In this document: positions 43,299 to 62,998 of the stretch, one piece after another
How positions within the stretch are numbered: the first letter of the stretch is position 1
How the letters are laid out: each line of letters begins with the position of its first letter
NCBI RefSeq assembly: GCF_011947365.2
Contig: NZ_JAAVSH020000001.1
Location: 613,119 to 677,118 of the forward strand
Reading direction: 5' to 3'
Source of the DNA: an endosymbiont of Lamellibrachia barhami
GTDB lineage: Bacteria; Pseudomonadota; Gammaproteobacteria; Chromatiales; Chromatiaceae
Length of the DNA stretch: 64,000 nt
Made by a program: the position numbers and the translations under genes
Notes under the pieces: generated by a model
What the model saw: only the letters and a program-made list of their open reading frames with translations
The model's database searches: none
Told to the model about the DNA's origin: nothing

Positions 43299-44702
<1,404 letters not shown>

Positions 44703-45149
44703 TTAACCCTGGATGTTTGGCGGCCAGCCAGCGGTGTTGATCTCAGATACATACTTCAGAAATTCAGCCAGGGCAGTCAGCTCTTCGTCGTTGAAGTTGA
44801 ACTGCGGCATACTGCGGCGACCGGGTATACCATCTTTCGGACGGCTCAGGATAAAACCCTTGATCGCATCGGTCGAATTGCCAAAACGCTTGTAGACGTT
44901 GCCCAGCTCAGGCGCAAAGTAGGCGCCCTCCCCCAACAGCGTGTGGCAGCCAATGCAGTTGTTCACCTCCCAAAGCGTCTTGCCTTGGGCGATCACCGGA
45001 CCCAGCTCCCCCTCCAGGGCCGCCCGGTTATCACGATTTGGAAGCTGCCCCAGCGAGTCGAACGTGAGGGCGAGAAAAAGTAGAAAGAAAAAAGCGCTGC
45101 CACCATAAAAGATGTTGCGCGCCATCGATTTAGTAAAGGCCTCGGCCAT
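44703..45149 (-). CDS. norC: Nitric oxide reductase cytochrome c subunit
   Basis: MAEAFTKSMARNIFYGGSAFFFLLFLALTFDS; GKTLWEVNNCIGCHTLLGEGAYFAPELGNVYKR. Confidence 0.96.
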   Translation of the reverse strand: MAEAFTKSMARNIFYGGSAFFFLLFLALTFDSLGQLPNRDNRAALEGELGPVIAQGKTLWEVNNCIGCHTLLGEGAYFAPELGNVYKRFGNSTDAIKGFILSRPKDGIPGRRSMPQFNFNDEELTALAEFLKYVSEINTAGWPPNIQG

Positions 45150-45213
45150 GTGATTACTCCTTTGCATGCAGACTTGCGACGTAAATTAGAAAATATTAAT
45201 AGATGACAAGGCT

Positions 45214-46253: not shown

Positions 46254-47096
46254 TTGATTTCCCCCAGACTCTTTTTTGTCGTGCTCGCCACGCTGATAGC
46301 CTTCTCATCAACCTGCGCCAGCGAAGAGAGGGAAATACATCTGCGGCTCCCTCCCGCCTCTTTGGCGCAGTGGTATAAACCGGCCAATAAACGTCACGTC
46401 TGGCTACACAACATGTTCAAACTGCGCCGCGAGATGCTGGCGGTCTCCGACTATTTGGCACTGGAAGATCGGGCGCGACTCAAAAAGTGGACCACTCGCC
46501 TGGCACAACACTACCGCAAGATTGGCGAAATGGTGCCGGAGTGGCGGGATGAACTGGAACCCGAACAGATGGACGCACTACAAAAGGCGGCGGAACAGGG
46601 CGATTACAAACAGGCCGCCAGCTCATTGCGAAAACTTGGTCTCAACTGCCGTTCCTGCCATCGGGACTATCGCGCCGTAGCTGCTGCACTCTATCGCAGC
46701 CCGGACTTCAGCCTAGTCAGTGTTGAGGATACTGAGACACTGGAGGAGGAACCTTATAAGAGGGTGATGGAGCGTCTCACCATGCTGCTCAACCGGGTAA
46801 AGATAGCCAGTGAGGATGAGAGAAAACAGACTGCGCTCGATAGCCTGGGCGATCTTCGCCGGCGGCTTGATGACCTTGGACAGAGTTGTGAATCCTGCCA
46901 TAAGGACGAAGATCAAAAATCAAGAATCCTCGGCCCTGAAACAGAGAAATCCCTGACGGCACTTGAACAGGCGATCGAAGCAGGAGAAAAAAAGCAGGCA
47001 GGACGCCATCTGGGAACACTGGCCGTCCAGAGCTGCGCACGCTGCCACAGCGTGCATCGCACCCTGTATGACATTAAAAAGATGCTTGTACCTTAA
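46254..47096 (+). CDS. Periplasmic triheme cytochrome c
   Basis: CRSCH, CESCH, CARCH in three similar helical units; N-terminal signal sequence. Confidence 0.82.
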   Translation: MISPRLFFVVLATLIAFSSTCASEEREIHLRLPPASLAQWYKPANKRHVWLHNMFKLRREMLAVSDYLALEDRARLKKWTTRLAQHYRKIGEMVPEWRDELEPEQMDALQKAAEQGDYKQAASSLRKLGLNCRSCHRDYRAVAAALYRSPDFSLVSVEDTETLEEEPYKRVMERLTMLLNRVKIASEDERKQTALDSLGDLRRRLDDLGQSCESCHKDEDQKSRILGPETEKSLTALEQAIEAGEKKQAGRHLGTLAVQSCARCHSVHRTLYDIKKMLVP

Positions 47097-47266: not shown

Positions 47267-48973
47267 ATGAGCAACCATTATCCTCCGGCCTCCAGGCGCC
47301 GGGTGTATCGCTTTACTTATATATCTCTCAGCTTCTCTATCTTGATTCTGACACTTGGCTGGGTAACCGCAACCCTGGCCTCCTCAGATCCAAAAATCGA
47401 AATGGGCATCTCCGAATATACAGATACGGATGAACGCCATGCGATTATCAAACTCAAAAAAGAGCGCACGGCAACCACTGATCATGCAAAACTGAAGGAG
47501 CTTCAAGGCCCGTTTTTTAGTGGCCCTGAAGTGACCAAAGCCTGCCTGGAGTGTCACAACACGGCAGGCCATCAGTTCATGAAAAACAAACACTGGACCT
47601 GGGACTACAAACATCCGAAGACAGGCCAGCACCTTGGCAAGAGTGTGTTGATCAATAACTTCTGTACCAATGCCAGAGGCAATGAGGGCATGTGTGCCCA
47701 GTGCCATGCCGGTTATAACATGGACAGCCCGGATTTTGATTTCACCAACCAGGACAATATCGACTGCCTGGTCTGCCACGAATCCACTGGCACCTACTAC
47801 AAAACACCCACATCAAAAGGCAACAAGGCCTGCTCCGTCATGTTTGAGGGCAAGCCAGCCATCGACTGGGCGGCGGTTGCCAAGAGCGTTGAGATGCCGA
47901 CTCGCAACAACTGCGGCAAGTGCCATTTCTACGGCGGCGGCGGTGACAATGTGAAACACGGTGACCTCTCATCTGTACTGTTCGACCCACCCAAAGACGT
48001 CGATGTGCACATGAGTGAAGCCGGCGAAGGCTTTTCATGTGTTACCTGCCACGTGGGCGAAGGTCATGAGTGGGCAGGTAGCCGCTACGAGATGCTGGTC
48101 AACGACGAGACTGGCACGGGTAAACCAGGCATGCCACGCGATGTTGCTTCATGCGAAAGCTGCCACAGCGCTTCGCCACATCCAATCACCTCTGTCCAGG
48201 GGATCAAGCTCAACAGCCATACTCAAACAGTTGCCTGCGAAACCTGCCACATTCCAGCTATTGCCCGGGGCGGTGTCGCCACTGAGGTCGACTGGGACTG
48301 GCGCACCATGGGCAGACTGAAAGATGGTGAGGGTTTTAAGCTGAAGGAGTATACCCAGGGTGACGGCCATCACCGCGCCACTTACAAATCGATCAAGGGC
48401 ACATTCACCTATGCTGAAGACCTTGAGCCAATGTATGCCTGGTTTGACGGCACCATGAACTACACCACGATCACCACCCAATTTGATCCATCAAAAGGCC
48501 CGATCGACATCAATAGTTTTTCCGGCTCCCATGATGACCCTGGTTCACGCATCTACCCGTTCAAACGCATGCACTCCACACAACCCTACGACAAGGGCAA
48601 CAACACGCTGCCCTATATGCATCTATGGGGCAATGATGAAGACGCACTCTGGGGCAACTATGATTTCGGCAAGGCAATAGAGGCCGGAATGAAGAAAAAT
48701 GGTATCCCTTACAGTGGTGAATGGGGGTTTGTCGAAACCTACTCCTACTGGCCCATCAACCACATGGTGGCGCCCAAAGACGATGCGCTGAGTTGTTCCA
48801 GCTGTCATTCACATGATGGCAGACTCGATCATCTTGATGGTTTCTATATGCCGGGTAGAGGCAAGAATGAAATGCTCGATCTTATCGGTTTGTTGGCAGT
48901 TCTCGGCACCCTGGGTGGGGTACTTGGACACGGCGCACTGCGCATGATCGCCACCCGCAGGAGGAAAGTCTGA
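47267..48973 (+). CDS. Octaheme tetrathionate reductase (OTR)-family cytochrome c, membrane-anchored
   Basis: Eight CXXCH motifs (CLECH, CAQCH, CLVCH, CGKCH, CVTCH, CESCH, CETCH, CSSCH); N-terminal signal and C-terminal TM. Confidence 0.9.
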   Translation: MSNHYPPASRRRVYRFTYISLSFSILILTLGWVTATLASSDPKIEMGISEYTDTDERHAIIKLKKERTATTDHAKLKELQGPFFSGPEVTKACLECHNTAGHQFMKNKHWTWDYKHPKTGQHLGKSVLINNFCTNARGNEGMCAQCHAGYNMDSPDFDFTNQDNIDCLVCHESTGTYYKTPTSKGNKACSVMFEGKPAIDWAAVAKSVEMPTRNNCGKCHFYGGGGDNVKHGDLSSVLFDPPKDVDVHMSEAGEGFSCVTCHVGEGHEWAGSRYEMLVNDETGTGKPGMPRDVASCESCHSASPHPITSVQGIKLNSHTQTVACETCHIPAIARGGVATEVDWDWRTMGRLKDGEGFKLKEYTQGDGHHRATYKSIKGTFTYAEDLEPMYAWFDGTMNYTTITTQFDPSKGPIDINSFSGSHDDPGSRIYPFKRMHSTQPYDKGNNTLPYMHLWGNDEDALWGNYDFGKAIEAGMKKNGIPYSGEWGFVETYSYWPINHMVAPKDDALSCSSCHSHDGRLDHLDGFYMPGRGKNEMLDLIGLLAVLGTLGGVLGHGALRMIATRRRKV

Positions 48974-49635
48974 TGACAATGCATAAGATCCTGGTCTTCA
49001 AGCGGTTTGAACGACTCTGGCACTGGAGCCAGATGGCGCTCATCTTCACCCTGCTGTTCACTGGATTTGCAGTACATGGCGTCTATAATCTGATCGAGTT
49101 TGGTGATGCCGTCACTGTACATACCTGGGCCGCGCTTGTGCTGTTGCTGCTCTGGGCATTCGCCATCTTCTGGCTCTTTACCACAGGGCAGTGGCGCCAC
49201 TATATCCCGACCACCGAGCACTTCATCAAGGTTGCCCGCTTTTACGCCTTCGGCATTTTCAAAGGAGAGCACCACCCCTATCGCAAGACCTACCGGCGTA
49301 AACACAATCCGCTTCAGGCGCTGACCTATCTTATGGTCAAGATCGTGATCTTTCCTGCGATCTGGATATCCGGCATCGCCTACCTGCTGATCAGTTTTGG
49401 ACAGGAGGCGCTTTTCAGCTGGATAGGACTTGGACCCATTGCGCTGGTCCATACCATCGCGGCCATCGCGGTCCTGCTATTCATCATCGCTCACGTCTAT
49501 CTGCTCACAACAGGCCACTCATTCATCGATCATGTGAAACCGATGATCACCGGCTATGATGACGTTGAACTGTCGGATGAAGAGTTGGCCTATCTGAAGG
49601 CAGATGAACCCGGGGTAATTAAAGAAGGGGATTAG
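48973..49635 (+). CDS. Membrane cytochrome b (b561-like) subunit, overlapping the octaheme gene
   Basis: Four TM segments; HKILVFKRFERLWHWSQMALIFTLLFTGFAVHG; HTIAAIAVLLFIIAHVYLLTTGHS. Confidence 0.88.
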   Translation: MTMHKILVFKRFERLWHWSQMALIFTLLFTGFAVHGVYNLIEFGDAVTVHTWAALVLLLLWAFAIFWLFTTGQWRHYIPTTEHFIKVARFYAFGIFKGEHHPYRKTYRRKHNPLQALTYLMVKIVIFPAIWISGIAYLLISFGQEALFSWIGLGPIALVHTIAAIAVLLFIIAHVYLLTTGHSFIDHVKPMITGYDDVELSDEELAYLKADEPGVIKEGD

Positions 49636-51091: not shown

Positions 51092-52678
51092 TCAATGACT
51101 GGTTCCGCGGGAGCGGGTCAGTTTGTTGTGGACGTTGTATTTACCTGAAGGCTTTTTCATCGGCAGACGCTTGACCTCCTCAAGCGTCTTGGCGTCGTAG
51201 ACCACCAGCGCACCATCGAGATCCCAGATGCTGACCAGGGCATAGCGGCCATCCTTGGTGAACTCGACATGGGCCGAGGTCTTGCCGGGCGCCGGTTTCA
51301 GCGTCTTTACTATCTCCAGAGTCTGCTTGTCGATCACATGCATCAGGTCCCTGTTGGGACCGAAGAAGACATCGACCCAAGCGTAGGGACTCTTCTCATG
51401 ACTGCGCATGAAGAACCCTGGCCCCTGGGTGGGAATCCGTTTGATCACCTCCCAGGTTTCGGTGTCGACAATGGTGACCTCTGGCTTTTCGATATTTGGT
51501 GTGGCCAGCACGTTTCTACCCTGATACTGCCAGGTAATGGCGGAACTCAGGTGCGGCATGCCGGGCAGTGTCACCTGAGCCACGGCTCTCTTCAGGTCGA
51601 GATCGACAACCTGCCCCGCACTTCCTTCGAGCCCCTTATCCAAGCCCCGTGACGTGCCGATCACCCGGTCATACTCCTGGGTGAGGAAGAAGTCATCCAG
51701 ATAACCCTCCACCTGGATGCGGCGTACCGGAAAGCGTTCCTCTTTATGGGCATCCCCGGACTCTTCGCGATAGTCATGGACCCAACCGGAAAAACCCGCC
51801 GGCGGCTCGTCCATATAACCAATCTCCCAAACCTCGGGGATATCCTTCAGCGCGGCGATAAAACTCTCCCGCGGATCCGCCGTATAGACCGCGCTGACCC
51901 TTGAAGAGGTGCCGGTTGCGTCCACCACATCGATCACCTTCAGCGGTGAAAGGTCGCGGGCGTCCAGCACTACCAGGGAATGGGGCAGGTAGTTGGCGGC
52001 AATCACATATCGTCCATCGTGGGAGACCGCAATGCTGCGGGTATTGATGCCGGTCCGCACCTCAGCGGCATAGGTCAGGTTGAAGACATCGAATTTGCTG
52101 ATCCAGCCATCCCGGGAGGCGAAGTAGATGTAACGTCCGCCTTCGGCCCACTTGGGTCCACCATGCAGGGCGAAGCGGGTCGGAAGCCGGTGAATCGGTT
52201 CAAAAGTATCGCCATTCAGCAGGGTGGCGTGGTGATCCCCAAGTTCAACCACCATGAAGAGGTTGTCGATATCCGCCTCGAATTTAGGGCTGCCCGGCAG
52301 TTCTCCCGGTTTGTGGTAGACCAGTTGGCTCCCTTTGATTTCATCCATACCCCATTTGGGCATAACCTTCAGTGGGGTATAGATCAGCTCCACCAGCGAC
52401 GCTATCTCCGCCTCGTTGAGCTTCTCCTTAAAGGGCGGCATCTGTACAGCCGGACGGCTGTTTTCGATCATTTGAAAGGCAGACTTCCTGCGCAGCCGCT
52501 TCAGGTTTTGCGGCAGCAATGCAGGCCCGATGATCCCAAGCCGGCCAGGGCCGTGACACTCGGCACAGTGCGTTTTATATAGCACCGCAGCGTCGACCGC
52601 AGCGACACTCTGAGCCGCATTAAAAAGGCCAGACAGGCAGAAAATGGTCAGCAGCAGGGGACGGATCTTCATGGTCAA
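51092..52678 (-). CDS. nirN: NirN-like cytochrome c/d1 protein
   Basis: One CAECH plus d1-type propeller (FMVVELGDHHATLLNGDTFEPIHRLPTRFALHGGPKWAEGGRYIYFASRDGWISKFD); adjacent to nirJ. Confidence 0.88.
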   Translation of the reverse strand: MTMKIRPLLLTIFCLSGLFNAAQSVAAVDAAVLYKTHCAECHGPGRLGIIGPALLPQNLKRLRRKSAFQMIENSRPAVQMPPFKEKLNEAEIASLVELIYTPLKVMPKWGMDEIKGSQLVYHKPGELPGSPKFEADIDNLFMVVELGDHHATLLNGDTFEPIHRLPTRFALHGGPKWAEGGRYIYFASRDGWISKFDVFNLTYAAEVRTGINTRSIAVSHDGRYVIAANYLPHSLVVLDARDLSPLKVIDVVDATGTSSRVSAVYTADPRESFIAALKDIPEVWEIGYMDEPPAGFSGWVHDYREESGDAHKEERFPVRRIQVEGYLDDFFLTQEYDRVIGTSRGLDKGLEGSAGQVVDLDLKRAVAQVTLPGMPHLSSAITWQYQGRNVLATPNIEKPEVTIVDTETWEVIKRIPTQGPGFFMRSHEKSPYAWVDVFFGPNRDLMHVIDKQTLEIVKTLKPAPGKTSAHVEFTKDGRYALVSIWDLDGALVVYDAKTLEEVKRLPMKKPSGKYNVHNKLTRSRGTSH

Positions 52679-58085: not shown

Positions 58086-58445
58086 CTATTCGACGTGTAC
58101 CACACCCGTCATTTTGGGATGTGGACCACAGCGATAGGGAAAACTTCCGACCTGATCGAAGCTGCGTTCATAGGTATCATCGGGAAACAGATAATCAGGC
58201 TCTGGATCCCCCGCCTGTTCAAACCAGACACTGTGGTACTGCCGCTTCTCCCGGTTGATCCAGCGCAGCCGCTGCCCGGCCTTGATGGTGATCTCCTGGG
58301 GCTCAAATTTAAATTTGATGATGTCTATCTCAGCGACCGGCGTCTGCGACCCCCCCGCCGACAGTGACGAGGCAGATAGGGCGAAAACCAGAACCAACAG
58401 GCTCCGACGAATGTTTATCAAATTGGTCGTCTTGCTCTTCATCAC
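58086..58445 (-). CDS. Plastocyanin/amicyanin-like cupredoxin
   Basis: EIDIIKFKFEPQEITIKAGQRLRWINREKRQYHSVWFEQ...GSFPYRCGPHPKMTGVVHVE (His, Cys-X-X-His ligand arrangement). Confidence 0.9.
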   Translation of the reverse strand: MMKSKTTNLINIRRSLLVLVFALSASSLSAGGSQTPVAEIDIIKFKFEPQEITIKAGQRLRWINREKRQYHSVWFEQAGDPEPDYLFPDDTYERSFDQVGSFPYRCGPHPKMTGVVHVE

Positions 58446-61270
58446 TGTGCAGTGGCGTTGATCTCTGCCTTATCGTTATCAAATCCCAGTTTGTAACCCA
58501 GGGAGACGTGGTGGAATCTGGCGTTGCTGTAGTCATCATGGATGGCGAAACCAAAATTGTAGACCTTATCTTTCGCCAGCGGCAGATCACCCGGCTTGCC
58601 GGTCTCAAGTTTACGCTTCATCACCAGGGTCCAGATGCCACCCTCCAACGAAGCGGTCATCTCTGCCGCCTCGCCGCCGCTCATGGCGCGCTGCTCCAGA
58701 ATGTGGCCATCCTCGACCTCGCCCTTGCCGGATCTGTAGCGCACCAGCTCCATATACTTGTGGGCGTCCATCTCCGCCTGCAGTTCATCCGCGCTCTTCA
58801 GCTTGTTCCAGCCACCGCGCTTCTTGCCACGACGCCCCTTGACCTCAATCTTAGTACGGCTCTCCTCGATGTACTTGGTCAGACCCTGTGAAAGATCGAG
58901 CTGCTGAGCTACCAGGCTGCCGTTTGCGGTCTCGGCATCCGGGGTGTGGGGCATAGAACGGAGATCGTGATGGCAGGTACCCCAGCAGCCAGACCGGTCA
59001 GCATACTTGACCTTATCGGTGGCAAACATCAGCGCCAGCTTCATCGAGTTACCCGGATCCATCTTGCCGCCCTCCACAAAGGGTACAGGCACATGCTCGG
59101 AATCCTCCCAGCTGAAGCGAAGATAGAGGTTCTCTCCATCGTGGGTCGACTCGACGCTGACCGGGATGCTGCCACGCTTGCCGGGAATAGGGGTCTTTTC
59201 AGCCTTCTGGCCGGTGACCATCTTTTCGCCCATGGCGGCGGTCTCTTTGTCGTGACAGGCAGTGCAACGATCTCCAGCCTTGATAAAGGGAAGGGCGCCG
59301 CCATGATCCTTGCCGGTCAGCATCCACTCCATGGAGGTCTGACCCGGATAGAAGATTGTGATCTCACGGCCTGCCGCCTTTGACCAGTCAATATGGGCAT
59401 CGATAACCGCGCCGCCGGTTGCCGCTCCACCCACTTGGGATGTTGCAGCAGCCGCCGCCTCACGTTTCACCGCATTGATCTCTACATCGGGCGATTCATT
59501 ATCGAAACCGATCCGGTAACCCAAGGAGACGTGGTGAAAACGGGCATTGGTATAGTCGTCGTGGATGGCAAAACCCAGGTTGTAGACCTGATCCAGAGCC
59601 AGACTCAGATCACCGGGTTTGTCGGATTTAAGCTTGCGCTTCATGACAACGATCCAAGTATTGCCCTCCTTGCGGGCATCCACCTCGAAGCCCTGACCAC
59701 CACTCATCAGACGTTGCGCCAGGATATCTCCATCCTCGGTCTCGCCTTTGCCGGATTTGTAGCGCAGCAGATCCATGAACTTATGGGCATCCATCTCCGC
59801 TTTCAGCTCATCCCCACTCTTCAGCTTGTCCCAGCCGCCACGTTTCTTGCCGCGACGCCCTTTGACTTCGACCTTGGTACGGCTCTCTTCAATATACTTG
59901 GTCAGCCCCTGAGACAGGTCAAGTTCCTGTGCAACCGGACTGCTGTTGGCCGTGTCGGCATCGGGGCTATGCGGCATGGAGCGAGCGTCGTGATGGCAGG
60001 TACCCCAGCAGCCCGAACGGTCGGCATACTTCACCTTGTCGGTGGCAAACATGACGGCCAGTTTCATGGGATTTTCAGGATCCATCTTGCCGCCTTCGAC
60101 AAACGGCACCGGCACATGGTCTGTATCTTCCCACTCAAAGCGCAGGTAGAGATTCTCGCTATCATGGGCAGCCTGCACATTCACGGGAATGCTGCCGCGC
60201 TTGCCGGGGATAGGGGTCTTCTCGGCCTTCTGACCAGTGACCATCTTCTCGCCCATGGCAGCGGTCTCTTTGTCGTGACAGGCAGTGCAACGATCTCCAG
60301 CCTTGATAAAGGGAAGGGCGCCGCCATGATCCTTACCGGTCAACATCCACTCCATGGAGGTCTGTCCCGGATAGAAAATGGTGATATTGCGCATCGGCAC
60401 GTCGCTCCAGTCGATACCGAAATCTGCAACCGGACCTGCCGCCATCGTGGCTGCAGTCGCCTCACCCGCCAGCTGAGATTTGTAGGCAGCCAAAGCGTCG
60501 GCAACGGCTTTATCCAGACGTGCCTTTTCGGCCTTCTTGGCTGCAATCTTGATCTCGCGGGCCTTCTTCGCCGCGGCCTGCTCCGCTTCAGCCTCTGCAG
60601 CCTCTTTGGCCTCTACCCGTTTCAAACCTTCGAGAAACATCTCGGGCACTTTCCGGATAAACGAGGGCTCTGGCGCCTCCAGCGCCTCCAGTTCCTCATC
60701 GGAGAGCAGATCACGCACAGGCTTGTGAGCAATGCCCTTGTGGCAGTCGATACAGGTCTGGCCGGTTTTGAAGGCATTCAGATGTTGTTTTCTCGCCCGG
60801 GGTTTCTGGAACTCCGGGTTCATGGATTCGAAATTGTGACAGTTGCGGCACTCGCGGGAGTCGGTGCTCTTCATCGTATCCCAGACCCGCTTCGCCATGG
60901 TCAGGCGGTGCTCATCGAACTTCTCAGGGGTATCCACGGTCCCCAAAATTTTATGGTAGATCTCGTTACTGGCCTGTATCTTCCTCGCCATCTTGTGTAC
61001 CCAAGGATCGGGAACATGGCAGTCAGAACAGGCCGCCCTGACGCCGGTGCGATTGGAATAGTGAATACTTGGTTTGTACTCCTCGTAGACATTCTCCTCC
61101 ATCTCGTGGCAGCTGATGCAGAACTCGAGGGTGTTGGTCGCCTCCATTGCGGTGTTAAAGCCACCCCAAAAGATGATGCCACCGATAAAAAACAGCAGTG
61201 CGCCACCCACAGTTGTACCAAGAATGAATCGCCGTGATGCCAGGCTGGGTTTTTTGAACTGGTCTGCCAT
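58442..61270 (-). CDS. NapC/NirT-type tetraheme domain fused to two tandem cytochrome c-552/DMSO-reductase-like heme-binding (EB_dh-like) domains
   Basis: NapC-like CISCH, CSDCH, CRNCH, CIDCH after an N-terminal TM; Ala/Lys/Glu linker; two 341-aa (1023-bp) repeats each with CTACH and CWGTCHHD and DHVPVPFVEGGKMDP. Confidence 0.88.
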   Translation of the reverse strand: MADQFKKPSLASRRFILGTTVGGALLFFIGGIIFWGGFNTAMEATNTLEFCISCHEMEENVYEEYKPSIHYSNRTGVRAACSDCHVPDPWVHKMARKIQASNEIYHKILGTVDTPEKFDEHRLTMAKRVWDTMKSTDSRECRNCHNFESMNPEFQKPRARKQHLNAFKTGQTCIDCHKGIAHKPVRDLLSDEELEALEAPEPSFIRKVPEMFLEGLKRVEAKEAAEAEAEQAAAKKAREIKIAAKKAEKARLDKAVADALAAYKSQLAGEATAATMAAGPVADFGIDWSDVPMRNITIFYPGQTSMEWMLTGKDHGGALPFIKAGDRCTACHDKETAAMGEKMVTGQKAEKTPIPGKRGSIPVNVQAAHDSENLYLRFEWEDTDHVPVPFVEGGKMDPENPMKLAVMFATDKVKYADRSGCWGTCHHDARSMPHSPDADTANSSPVAQELDLSQGLTKYIEESRTKVEVKGRRGKKRGGWDKLKSGDELKAEMDAHKFMDLLRYKSGKGETEDGDILAQRLMSGGQGFEVDARKEGNTWIVVMKRKLKSDKPGDLSLALDQVYNLGFAIHDDYTNARFHHVSLGYRIGFDNESPDVEINAVKREAAAAATSQVGGAATGGAVIDAHIDWSKAAGREITIFYPGQTSMEWMLTGKDHGGALPFIKAGDRCTACHDKETAAMGEKMVTGQKAEKTPIPGKRGSIPVSVESTHDGENLYLRFSWEDSEHVPVPFVEGGKMDPGNSMKLALMFATDKVKYADRSGCWGTCHHDLRSMPHTPDAETANGSLVAQQLDLSQGLTKYIEESRTKIEVKGRRGKKRGGWNKLKSADELQAEMDAHKYMELVRYRSGKGEVEDGHILEQRAMSGGEAAEMTASLEGGIWTLVMKRKLETGKPGDLPLAKDKVYNFGFAIHDDYSNARFHHVSLGYKLGFDNDKAEINATAQ

Positions 61271-61311
61271 TTGCTTACCGTTTACACGAGGAGAAAAAAG
61301 GCGAAAAAACG

Positions 61312-61342
61312 CGGGCATGGAGGCTATCCATGCCCGCTTTCG
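61312..61342. promoter_or_regulatory. Intercistronic hairpin between nirS and the multiheme gene
   Basis: GCGGGCATGGATAGCCTCCATGCCCGC stem-loop (reverse strand) without an obvious U tract. Confidence 0.5.
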
Positions 61343-61369: not shown

Positions 61370-62998
61370 TCAGGTTACGTGGTTAACGCGGTTGTAGACG
61401 TTGAACTTACCGGTCGGTGCGTAGAGGCCCTTGATACGTGCCTTCTCTTTGAGGGTCTTGGCATCGAAGATGATGATCTGACCGTTGGGCTTCTTGCTGT
61501 CCTTGCGATTCCAGACAGAGGTCCAGACCTCAGAACCATCTGCGTTGAACTCGATATGAACGGCTGCATAGCCTTCAACCTCGGTCAGACGAATGGTCTT
61601 GACGATCTCGCGGGTCTTCTTGGAGATGACCTGAATCGACTGCTGAACCTCAGGCTCAGGGGTCTTGGTCTGGTCAGCCCAAAAGTAGTCAGACTTGGGA
61701 TGGGTGCGAATGAATACGCCGGGACCATCGGTTTCGACTTCGTAGCAGATCTTCCATGCCATATCCGGGCGGCCCTTTGGATCGTTGCCCCAGACGGTGA
61801 CCTTGCCAACACCCAGATGGGTAGTACCGCCGACAGGACCACACTTGGAATCGATCCAGTTGGCGCCAGGACCAGGATGAGGTTTCTTATCCACATCGAT
61901 CATCGCTTCCAGCTTCTGGGTCTTGGTGTCAATGACCACCATTTTATCGGAAGCGTTGGCAGCAATCTGGAAGTAGCGACCGGTAGGATCGTAGAAACCG
62001 TCGTGAAGGTACTTGGCAGAGTCTATCTTGGTCATCTTCAGGTTGTCGATGTCAGTGTAATCAACCTGCCACATCTGACCCAGCTCCTTCATGGAGACCA
62101 ACCAGGTAGGCGCCATCGGAGTGTCATATACCGCTGCGACACGAGACTCGTTGACATACTCGCCATCAATATTCACGCCACGGGCAGAGACGACTTTCAG
62201 CGGCTCCATTGTCTTGGCGTCGAGGATAACGAAGTGAGGCGGCCAGTAACCACCACCGATAACGTACTTGCCGTCACCGGAGACCGCGACGTCACGGGCA
62301 TCATAAGCGACCTGCACCTGAGCCACCTTCATCTTGTCAGGCATGGCCCAGAGGTCAACCTTGGTCATCATGCCGTCACGACCCATGATGTACCAGAATC
62401 GCCCAAGGTCTTTGGCATGCAGAGTCTGGTGATGCTCAACCGCTTTCAACACATGCACGGCGTAACCGGTGCTGATGTGGGCGAACACCTCTTTTGTGTC
62501 ACCATCGATGATTGCAATCTTGCCTACATCACGCTCGATGACCAGGAAGAAGTTCTCCCAGTTACGACCGTGCATCGGCTTGGTAGGATAGTCCTTAGGC
62601 TCTACATAAACCTTGTGACGCTCCTTCATCAATGCCAAAGACATCTCCGGTGGAATCGGTGCCTCCTGCTGAATGTACTTGGAAATCAGGCTGATCTCTC
62701 CCTTCGACAGAATATCGTCGAAGTTGTTCATACCACCCTCTGTACCATAGGTGATAATCTTTTCGAGACGATTCTGACCCAGCTTCATGGTGTTTTCGGG
62801 TTCTAGATTCTTACCTGTGGCGCCTTTACGCAGAGTGCCATGGCAGCCGGCGCAACGCTGGAAATAGATTGATTTCCCTTTTTCAAAGTCTGCTTCCGAC
62901 ATGGTCGGCGCCGCCGCAGTAGCGTTTACTGCAAAACCTGACGTAACGACACCAAGGGCAAAGCCCAAGGCTGAAAGTGTAAATGTGGTTTTCTTCAT
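61370..62998 (-). CDS. nirS: Cytochrome cd1 nitrite reductase
   Basis: KGKSIYFQRCAGCHGTLRKGATGKNLEP; YPTKPMHGRNWENFFLVIERDVGKIAIIDGDTKEVFAHISTGYAVHVLK; IKGLYAPTGKFNVYNRVNHVT. Confidence 0.97.
   Translation of the reverse strand: MKKTTFTLSALGFALGVVTSGFAVNATAAAPTMSEADFEKGKSIYFQRCAGCHGTLRKGATGKNLEPENTMKLGQNRLEKIITYGTEGGMNNFDDILSKGEISLISKYIQQEAPIPPEMSLALMKERHKVYVEPKDYPTKPMHGRNWENFFLVIERDVGKIAIIDGDTKEVFAHISTGYAVHVLKAVEHHQTLHAKDLGRFWYIMGRDGMMTKVDLWAMPDKMKVAQVQVAYDARDVAVSGDGKYVIGGGYWPPHFVILDAKTMEPLKVVSARGVNIDGEYVNESRVAAVYDTPMAPTWLVSMKELGQMWQVDYTDIDNLKMTKIDSAKYLHDGFYDPTGRYFQIAANASDKMVVIDTKTQKLEAMIDVDKKPHPGPGANWIDSKCGPVGGTTHLGVGKVTVWGNDPKGRPDMAWKICYEVETDGPGVFIRTHPKSDYFWADQTKTPEPEVQQSIQVISKKTREIVKTIRLTEVEGYAAVHIEFNADGSEVWTSVWNRKDSKKPNGQIIIFDAKTLKEKARIKGLYAPTGKFNVYNRVNHVT

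Follow-up and report, generated by a model that had tools for sequence, protein, structure and literature searches.

The window, a stretch of 64,000 nucleotides from the genome of an endosymbiont of the tubeworm Lamellibrachia barhami, contains two adjoining genes on the forward strand, of which the first (47267..48973, +) encodes an octaheme cytochrome c of 568 amino acids, the predicted catalytic subunit, and the second (48973..49635, +) a four-helix cytochrome b of 220 amino acids, the predicted quinol-reactive di-heme subunit. The first gene is the eight-CXXCH reading frame of the original prediction and stands exactly where it had been placed. Its assignment to the octaheme tetrathionate reductase (OTR) family, also proposed there, is confirmed at the level of sequence and modelled structure: the protein matched TIGR04315 at 575.2 bits (curated cut-off 375) and the Shewanella OTR (PDB 1SP3) at E 8e-93; all eight CXXCH motifs align with those of 1SP3, and in a Foldseek comparison its AlphaFold model matched 1sp3 (E 2.9e-37, TMt 0.81) and no other structure significantly. 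The criterion for enzymes of the NrfA and ONR types is a CXXCK active-site heme motif; none was found in the window OTR, where all eight motifs are CXXCH, and a Pfam scan returned no match to the HAO-type profile PF13447, family-level matches being of the OTR type. A tetrathionate reductase activity of the window protein is putative, the activity having been shown for homologs only (PMC6449678).

The AlphaFold model places helices at residues 9-34 and 535-567 of the OTR, in agreement with hydrophobic stretches at both ends that had been taken for two membrane anchors. The C-terminal one is the conserved membrane anchor, and a helix in this position was present in 127 of 131 OTR relatives; the N-terminal stretch may instead be a cleavable Sec signal. 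With its C-terminal membrane helix, the window OTR is not of the soluble periplasmic form known from Shewanella, and solubility is not a defining feature of the family.

Residue conservation was evaluated in an alignment of 131 OTR sequences that included 1SP3. The eight CXXCH motifs are conserved across this alignment with two deviations, a truncated gene lacking the first heme motif (L003) and a sequence gapped at one heme-7 cysteine (L015). Heme II is the catalytic heme of Shewanella OTR (PMC4484225), and by homology the same role is predicted for heme 2 of the window protein (C143-H147; 47693..47707, +), the columns of which are invariant (131/131). The lysine-ligated active-site heme that the original prediction had suggested looking for has a predicted counterpart here: Lys230 (47954..47956, +) occupies the position of K153, the unusual heme ligand of 1SP3, and is predicted to serve as ligand in turn; lysine was found at this position in all 131 sequences, and the histidine that follows it is conserved as well. 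The non-heme cysteine Cys133 (47663..47665, +; C64 of 1SP3), located ten residues ahead of the heme 2 motif and present in 130 of the 131 sequences, may have a catalytic role.

The cytochrome b matched PF01292 at 77.7 bits (cut-off 30.1), and its AlphaFold model consists of four long membrane helices, with the formate dehydrogenase-N subunit FdnI (1kqf_C, TM 0.64), whose quinone site lies on the cytoplasmic side, as best fold match. Four histidines (His17, His50, His160 and His174) were each kept in at least 129 of 130 sequences, and are predicted to be those expected for two b hemes. The OTR and cytochrome b genes share a single base in the sequence TGATG, where the OTR stop codon TGA (48971-48973) runs into the ATG (48973-48975) of its neighbor; the junction reads AGGAGGAAAGTCTGATG. 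A Shine-Dalgarno-like AGGAGG (48959..48964, +), read directly from the sequence, lies within the end of the OTR gene, eight bases ahead of the cytochrome b start, and a scan for promoters and terminators found nothing above chance. The four-helix b-type cytochrome said to overlap the octaheme gene was thus recovered, with an overlap of one base.

The membrane helix at the OTR C-terminus (residues 535-567; 48869..48967, +) carries the tail pattern FYxPGR...LDxxG...GVxxHGxxR, in which an H-x3-R motif is formed by His555 (48929-48931; 128/131 sequences) and Arg559 (127/131). By conservation, by the model and by its profile match, this helix aligns with helix 1 of five-helix cytochromes b of the PhsC/YdhU type: placing the OTR tail before the cytochrome b lifted the match to PRK15006 from 109.5 to 121.6 bits, in a single alignment without gaps that crosses the gene junction, both scores remaining below the NF011582 cut-off of 204. 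The five-helix protein YdhU of Escherichia coli carries LHALLR where the OTR has its H-x3-R. In a shuffle control, the YdhU N-terminus outscored 996 of 1000 shuffles; in a swap control, exchanging the helix body for other hydrophobic YdhU helices gave profile scores about as high, and a statistical proof of helix-1 homology was therefore rejected. Since the helix body alone is unspecific, the helix-1 assignment rests on the H-x3-R motif, the constant spacing, and fusions. On these grounds, what ends the OTR seems to be the first helix of a PhsC/YdhU-type cytochrome b and, because the tail lines up gaplessly with that helix and conserves H-x3-R, the membrane domain appears to be split over two genes.

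Tail helices of the same H-x3-R type also occur in three seven-heme cytochromes of other genomes (L207, L217 and L219). In L217 and L219, the next gene encodes a cytochrome b of the PhsC type; the corresponding match in L207 contains a stop. A nine-CXXCH cytochrome that does not belong to the OTR family (L194:298-2247) is fused to a PhsC-type cytochrome b via an H-x3-R helix, and the gene after it carries rhodanese-like repeats (named by eye).

A cytochrome b gene was found directly downstream of the OTR gene, on the same strand, at 137 of 141 sampled loci, a set in which some records are duplicated between collections and sampling is biased toward relatives of the query; the pairing spans Gammaproteobacteria, Bacteroidota, Ignavibacteriota, Chlorobiota and others. 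Two of the four unpaired loci lie at contig ends (L069, L113) and one has a disrupted OTR (L075), which leaves L141 as the true exception; here both the cytochrome b and the C-terminal membrane helix are missing, and 1SP3 likewise has no such helix. In one genome, OTR and cytochrome b are naturally fused in a single protein of 736 amino acids. Because the pair recurs at 137 of 141 loci, its presence in the window is not due to chance, and a cytochrome b partner is the rule throughout the OTR family. The original prediction of a quinol-linked partner, for which a lack of cytochrome b near close homologs had been named as contrary evidence, is borne out in this respect: in these homologs, cytochrome b adjoins OTR. 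Earlier work on single genomes had remarked on the pairing (PMC7509429, PMC6449678), and a family-wide account was not found in the literature searched; as far as could be found, the generality of the cytochrome b partner and the apparent location of the partner's first helix on OTR are previously undescribed, and of all parts of this picture the shared helix has the least documentation. A longer cytochrome b stands beside OTR in L095 (L095:9635-10966) and at ten other Bacteroidota-type loci; the L095 protein carries two C-terminal PAS domains identified by Pfam, which suggests a sensory variant of the module, and the other ten clustered with it.

The surroundings of the pair in the window are those previously described, with norCB and accessory cytochromes on one side and a nir cluster on the other. 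NorB-like (43299-44687, -) and NorC-like (44703-45167, -) genes are separated from the OTR gene by two accessory cytochromes, one diheme and one three-heme. The gene upstream of OTR on the same strand (46254..47096, +) encodes a cytochrome c'-like protein with three CXXCH motifs (PF01322, 49.2 bits); it was present in the tubeworm-symbiont genus only, and its membership in the OTR unit is uncertain. A nuclease gene separates the pair from the nir cluster, in which a NirN-like gene (51092-52678) is followed by NirJ, four genes of the siroheme-decarboxylase type, NirF, a small cytochrome c and finally NirS (61370-62998, -). Near nirS, a 958-aa protein (58442-61318, -) combines a tetraheme domain of the NapC/NirT type with two heme-binding repeats of the ethylbenzene-dehydrogenase type (EB_dh), which is an unusual set of domains.

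Among database entries, the locus has its closest relatives in endosymbionts of the tubeworms Escarpia and Lamellibrachia, with OTR proteins 96-98% identical to that of the window; OTR had already been reported in tubeworm symbionts (PMC7540712, PMC6449678). The same genome holds a second OTR and cytochrome b (L003:6618-8622; G000:C1, about 3238.6 kb) with its 5' end cut off: homology to all five congeners starts abruptly at L003:6618, beside transposase-like genes, and the pentaheme, HAO-like octaheme and NapC-type genes that precede the intact second copies in the five congeners are missing here. As a fragment without the first heme motif, this copy was rejected as a functional backup, and apart from the window OTR no intact copy was found in this genome.

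The window OTR falls into a strongly supported clade (clade A; 62 rows, SH-aLRT 100) together with homologs from Sedimenticola, Marithrix, Thiomargarita and Thioploca. The position of the pair between norCB and nir could point to a nitrogen-oxide role within this genus, as a quinol-linked reductase of nitrite, hydroxylamine or possibly NO that supplies ammonium or detoxifies denitrification intermediates alongside NirS and NorCB. The window shares this arrangement with each of the five congeners searched, with the cytochrome c'-like gene just upstream of OTR as a further element; nitrite is reduced in vitro by the Beggiatoaceae homolog BOGUAY_2386 (PMC6449678) and by Shewanella OTR (PMC4484225), and the Riftia trophosome converts nitrite to ammonia (PMC6449678). 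The earlier argument from synteny was tested across clade A and came out weakened: norCB and nir stood beside OTR at none of the 49 remaining loci of the clade, over 311 kb of inner flank, and the arrangement is confined to the tubeworm-symbiont genus, where it may nonetheless be meaningful.

Hardly any neighbor of OTR recurs in clade A beyond the tubeworm symbionts, and the genomic context that links OTR to sulfur metabolism therefore comes from other clades. Most of the neighbors that recur in distant relatives are sulfur genes, which also speaks against a primary nitrogen-oxide role. At the 34 loci of the Bacteroidota-type clade, a YeeE/YedE transporter (19/34) and a rhodanese (21/34) lie within 4 kb of OTR, and neither was found further out than 4 kb in the flanks examined; the naturally fused 736-aa protein stands between SoxY-like and rhodanese genes. 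In E. coli, YeeE serves the uptake of thiosulfate (PMC11073785), a function that would suit a reductase with thiosulfate as its product, and otr also neighbors a SoxY variant in a lucinid symbiont (PMC11237559). One paralogous gammaproteobacterial sub-clade of OTR adjoins HAO-like and NapC genes; because of this second genomic setting, a role in nitrogen metabolism keeps some plausibility, and we rate it as possible, if rather unlikely, for the window pair. In one gammaproteobacterial sub-clade (L158, L160, L161, L177, L178 and L077), a DUF302 protein precedes OTR and cytochrome b, and in five of these six loci a thioredoxin-like (TlpA-type) protein follows them.

Tetrathionate and nitrite, both named as candidate substrates in the original prediction, are also those of published assays on the Beggiatoaceae homolog. 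Recombinant BOGUAY_2386, assayed as a partly purified protein with an artificial electron donor, reduced tetrathionate at up to 93 umol/min/mg (U/mg) vs. 1.3 for nitrite (PMC6449678), an approximately 70-fold difference between values from different elutions that argues against nitrite as the main substrate. As a caveat, the authors of that study advise against inferring the substrate from phylogeny (PMC6449678). Since the tetrathionate/thiosulfate couple lies at +198 mV (PMC5146829), quinol can reduce tetrathionate, whereas the oxidation of thiosulfate by ubiquinone is disfavored. The assay and this potential together rank tetrathionate reduction first, nitrogen-oxide reduction second, and thiosulfate oxidation last; the window pair is best read, with a probability of roughly 0.6 and by analogy with the assayed homolog, as a putative quinol:tetrathionate oxidoreductase with nitrite reduction as a side activity. 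The reverse reaction, from thiosulfate to tetrathionate with reduction of quinone, might seem natural in hosts that are sulfur oxidizers, and TsdA enzymes, which belong to another family, can be bidirectional (PMC5146829); yet electrons from a couple at +198 mV would have to move uphill to ubiquinone, and also against the membrane potential if the quinone site is cytoplasmic as in FdnI, and the BOGUAY_2386 assay was reported in the reducing direction (PMC6449678), so that we consider this direction improbable.

The sequence shows the fold and hemes of OTR, its lysine and anchor, the four conserved histidines of the cytochrome b, the pairing of the genes and a natural fusion; the two proteins would form one membrane enzyme in which a periplasmic OTR is held on its C-terminal helix and joined to the di-heme cytochrome b. 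The cytochrome b would oxidize quinol, and electrons would pass through the two b hemes and the c-heme chain of OTR to the lysine-ligated heme 2, where a small oxidized substrate would be reduced; this is most probably tetrathionate, which would yield two thiosulfate, and nitrite and hydroxylamine would be side or alternative substrates. We infer quinol as donor, the direction of electron flow, the substrate, and the side of the membrane on which quinol is bound. With a membrane domain common to both polypeptides, the reductase would not work in the manner of the free, shuttle-fed Shewanella protein. That the cytochrome b is a mere neighbor and OTR is fed by soluble cytochromes, as the Shewanella enzyme is (PMC4484225), is very hard to credit against the 137/141 pairing, the natural fusion, the one-base overlap and the conserved tail helix.

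The annotation of OTR-like genes as nitrite or tetrathionate reductases often rests on homology to the soluble Shewanella enzyme. If the usual OTR form is a quinol-linked membrane complex, then the electron donor, the energetics and the appropriate assay conditions differ from those of this model, and the role of OTR in tubeworm symbionts, ammonium supply vs. respiration of sulfur intermediates, becomes testable with the two-gene unit. The membrane module of OTR appears, from sequence comparison, to be common to other multiheme enzymes, and we think it rather probable that OTR is typically a two-gene quinol dehydrogenase-reductase with a split cytochrome b, that the H-x3-R helix is a general plug that links different multiheme reductases to one quinol module, and that the Shewanella form is atypical in being soluble. 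The H-x3-R tail would then be a simple sequence mark for recognizing further multiheme reductases that are connected to the quinone pool.

Among known systems, the OTR of Shewanella oneidensis (1SP3) shares with the window OTR the fold, the eight CXXCH hemes, the lysine at K153 and the Cys64 position; in contrast to the window protein with its C-terminal helix and cytochrome b partner, it has no such helix and is fed by CymA/STC (PMC4484225). BOGUAY_2386 of the orange Guaymas Beggiatoaceae was reported to have N- and C-terminal membrane helices and, as in the window pair, a thiosulfate-reductase-type cytochrome b gene downstream, with tubeworm-symbiont homologs as its closest relatives (PMC6449678). 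Its probable relatives in our set (L055, L056, L057 and L076) share about 65-70% identity with the window OTR; at the clade-A locus L076, the cytochrome b is followed by apparent molybdopterin, iron-sulfur and membrane subunits, which is the gene order of BOGUAY_2386 (PMC6449678). BOGUAY_2386 very probably belongs to the same clade as the window OTR. The two loci differ in that thiosulfate reductase genes lie downstream of BOGUAY_2386, and nor and nir genes surround the window pair. In the Ignavibacteriae bacterium Ch128a, Otr and a cytochrome b561 show the same two-gene layout, and the same supply of electrons from the quinone pool has been proposed (PMC7509429); the ignavibacterial loci belong to a different clade, with about 40% identity to the window OTR. 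The cytochromes b of the PhsC/YdhU type (PRK15006/NF011582) resemble the OTR tail and cytochrome b taken together, in the gapless alignment, the H-x3-R motif and the b-type histidines, yet they hold five helices in one protein that are here divided between two. Finally, FdnI, the gamma subunit of formate dehydrogenase-N (1KQF chain C), is the best fold match of the cytochrome b at an identity of only about 16%, and its partner is an iron-sulfur subunit, whereas that of the window cytochrome b is the octaheme OTR.
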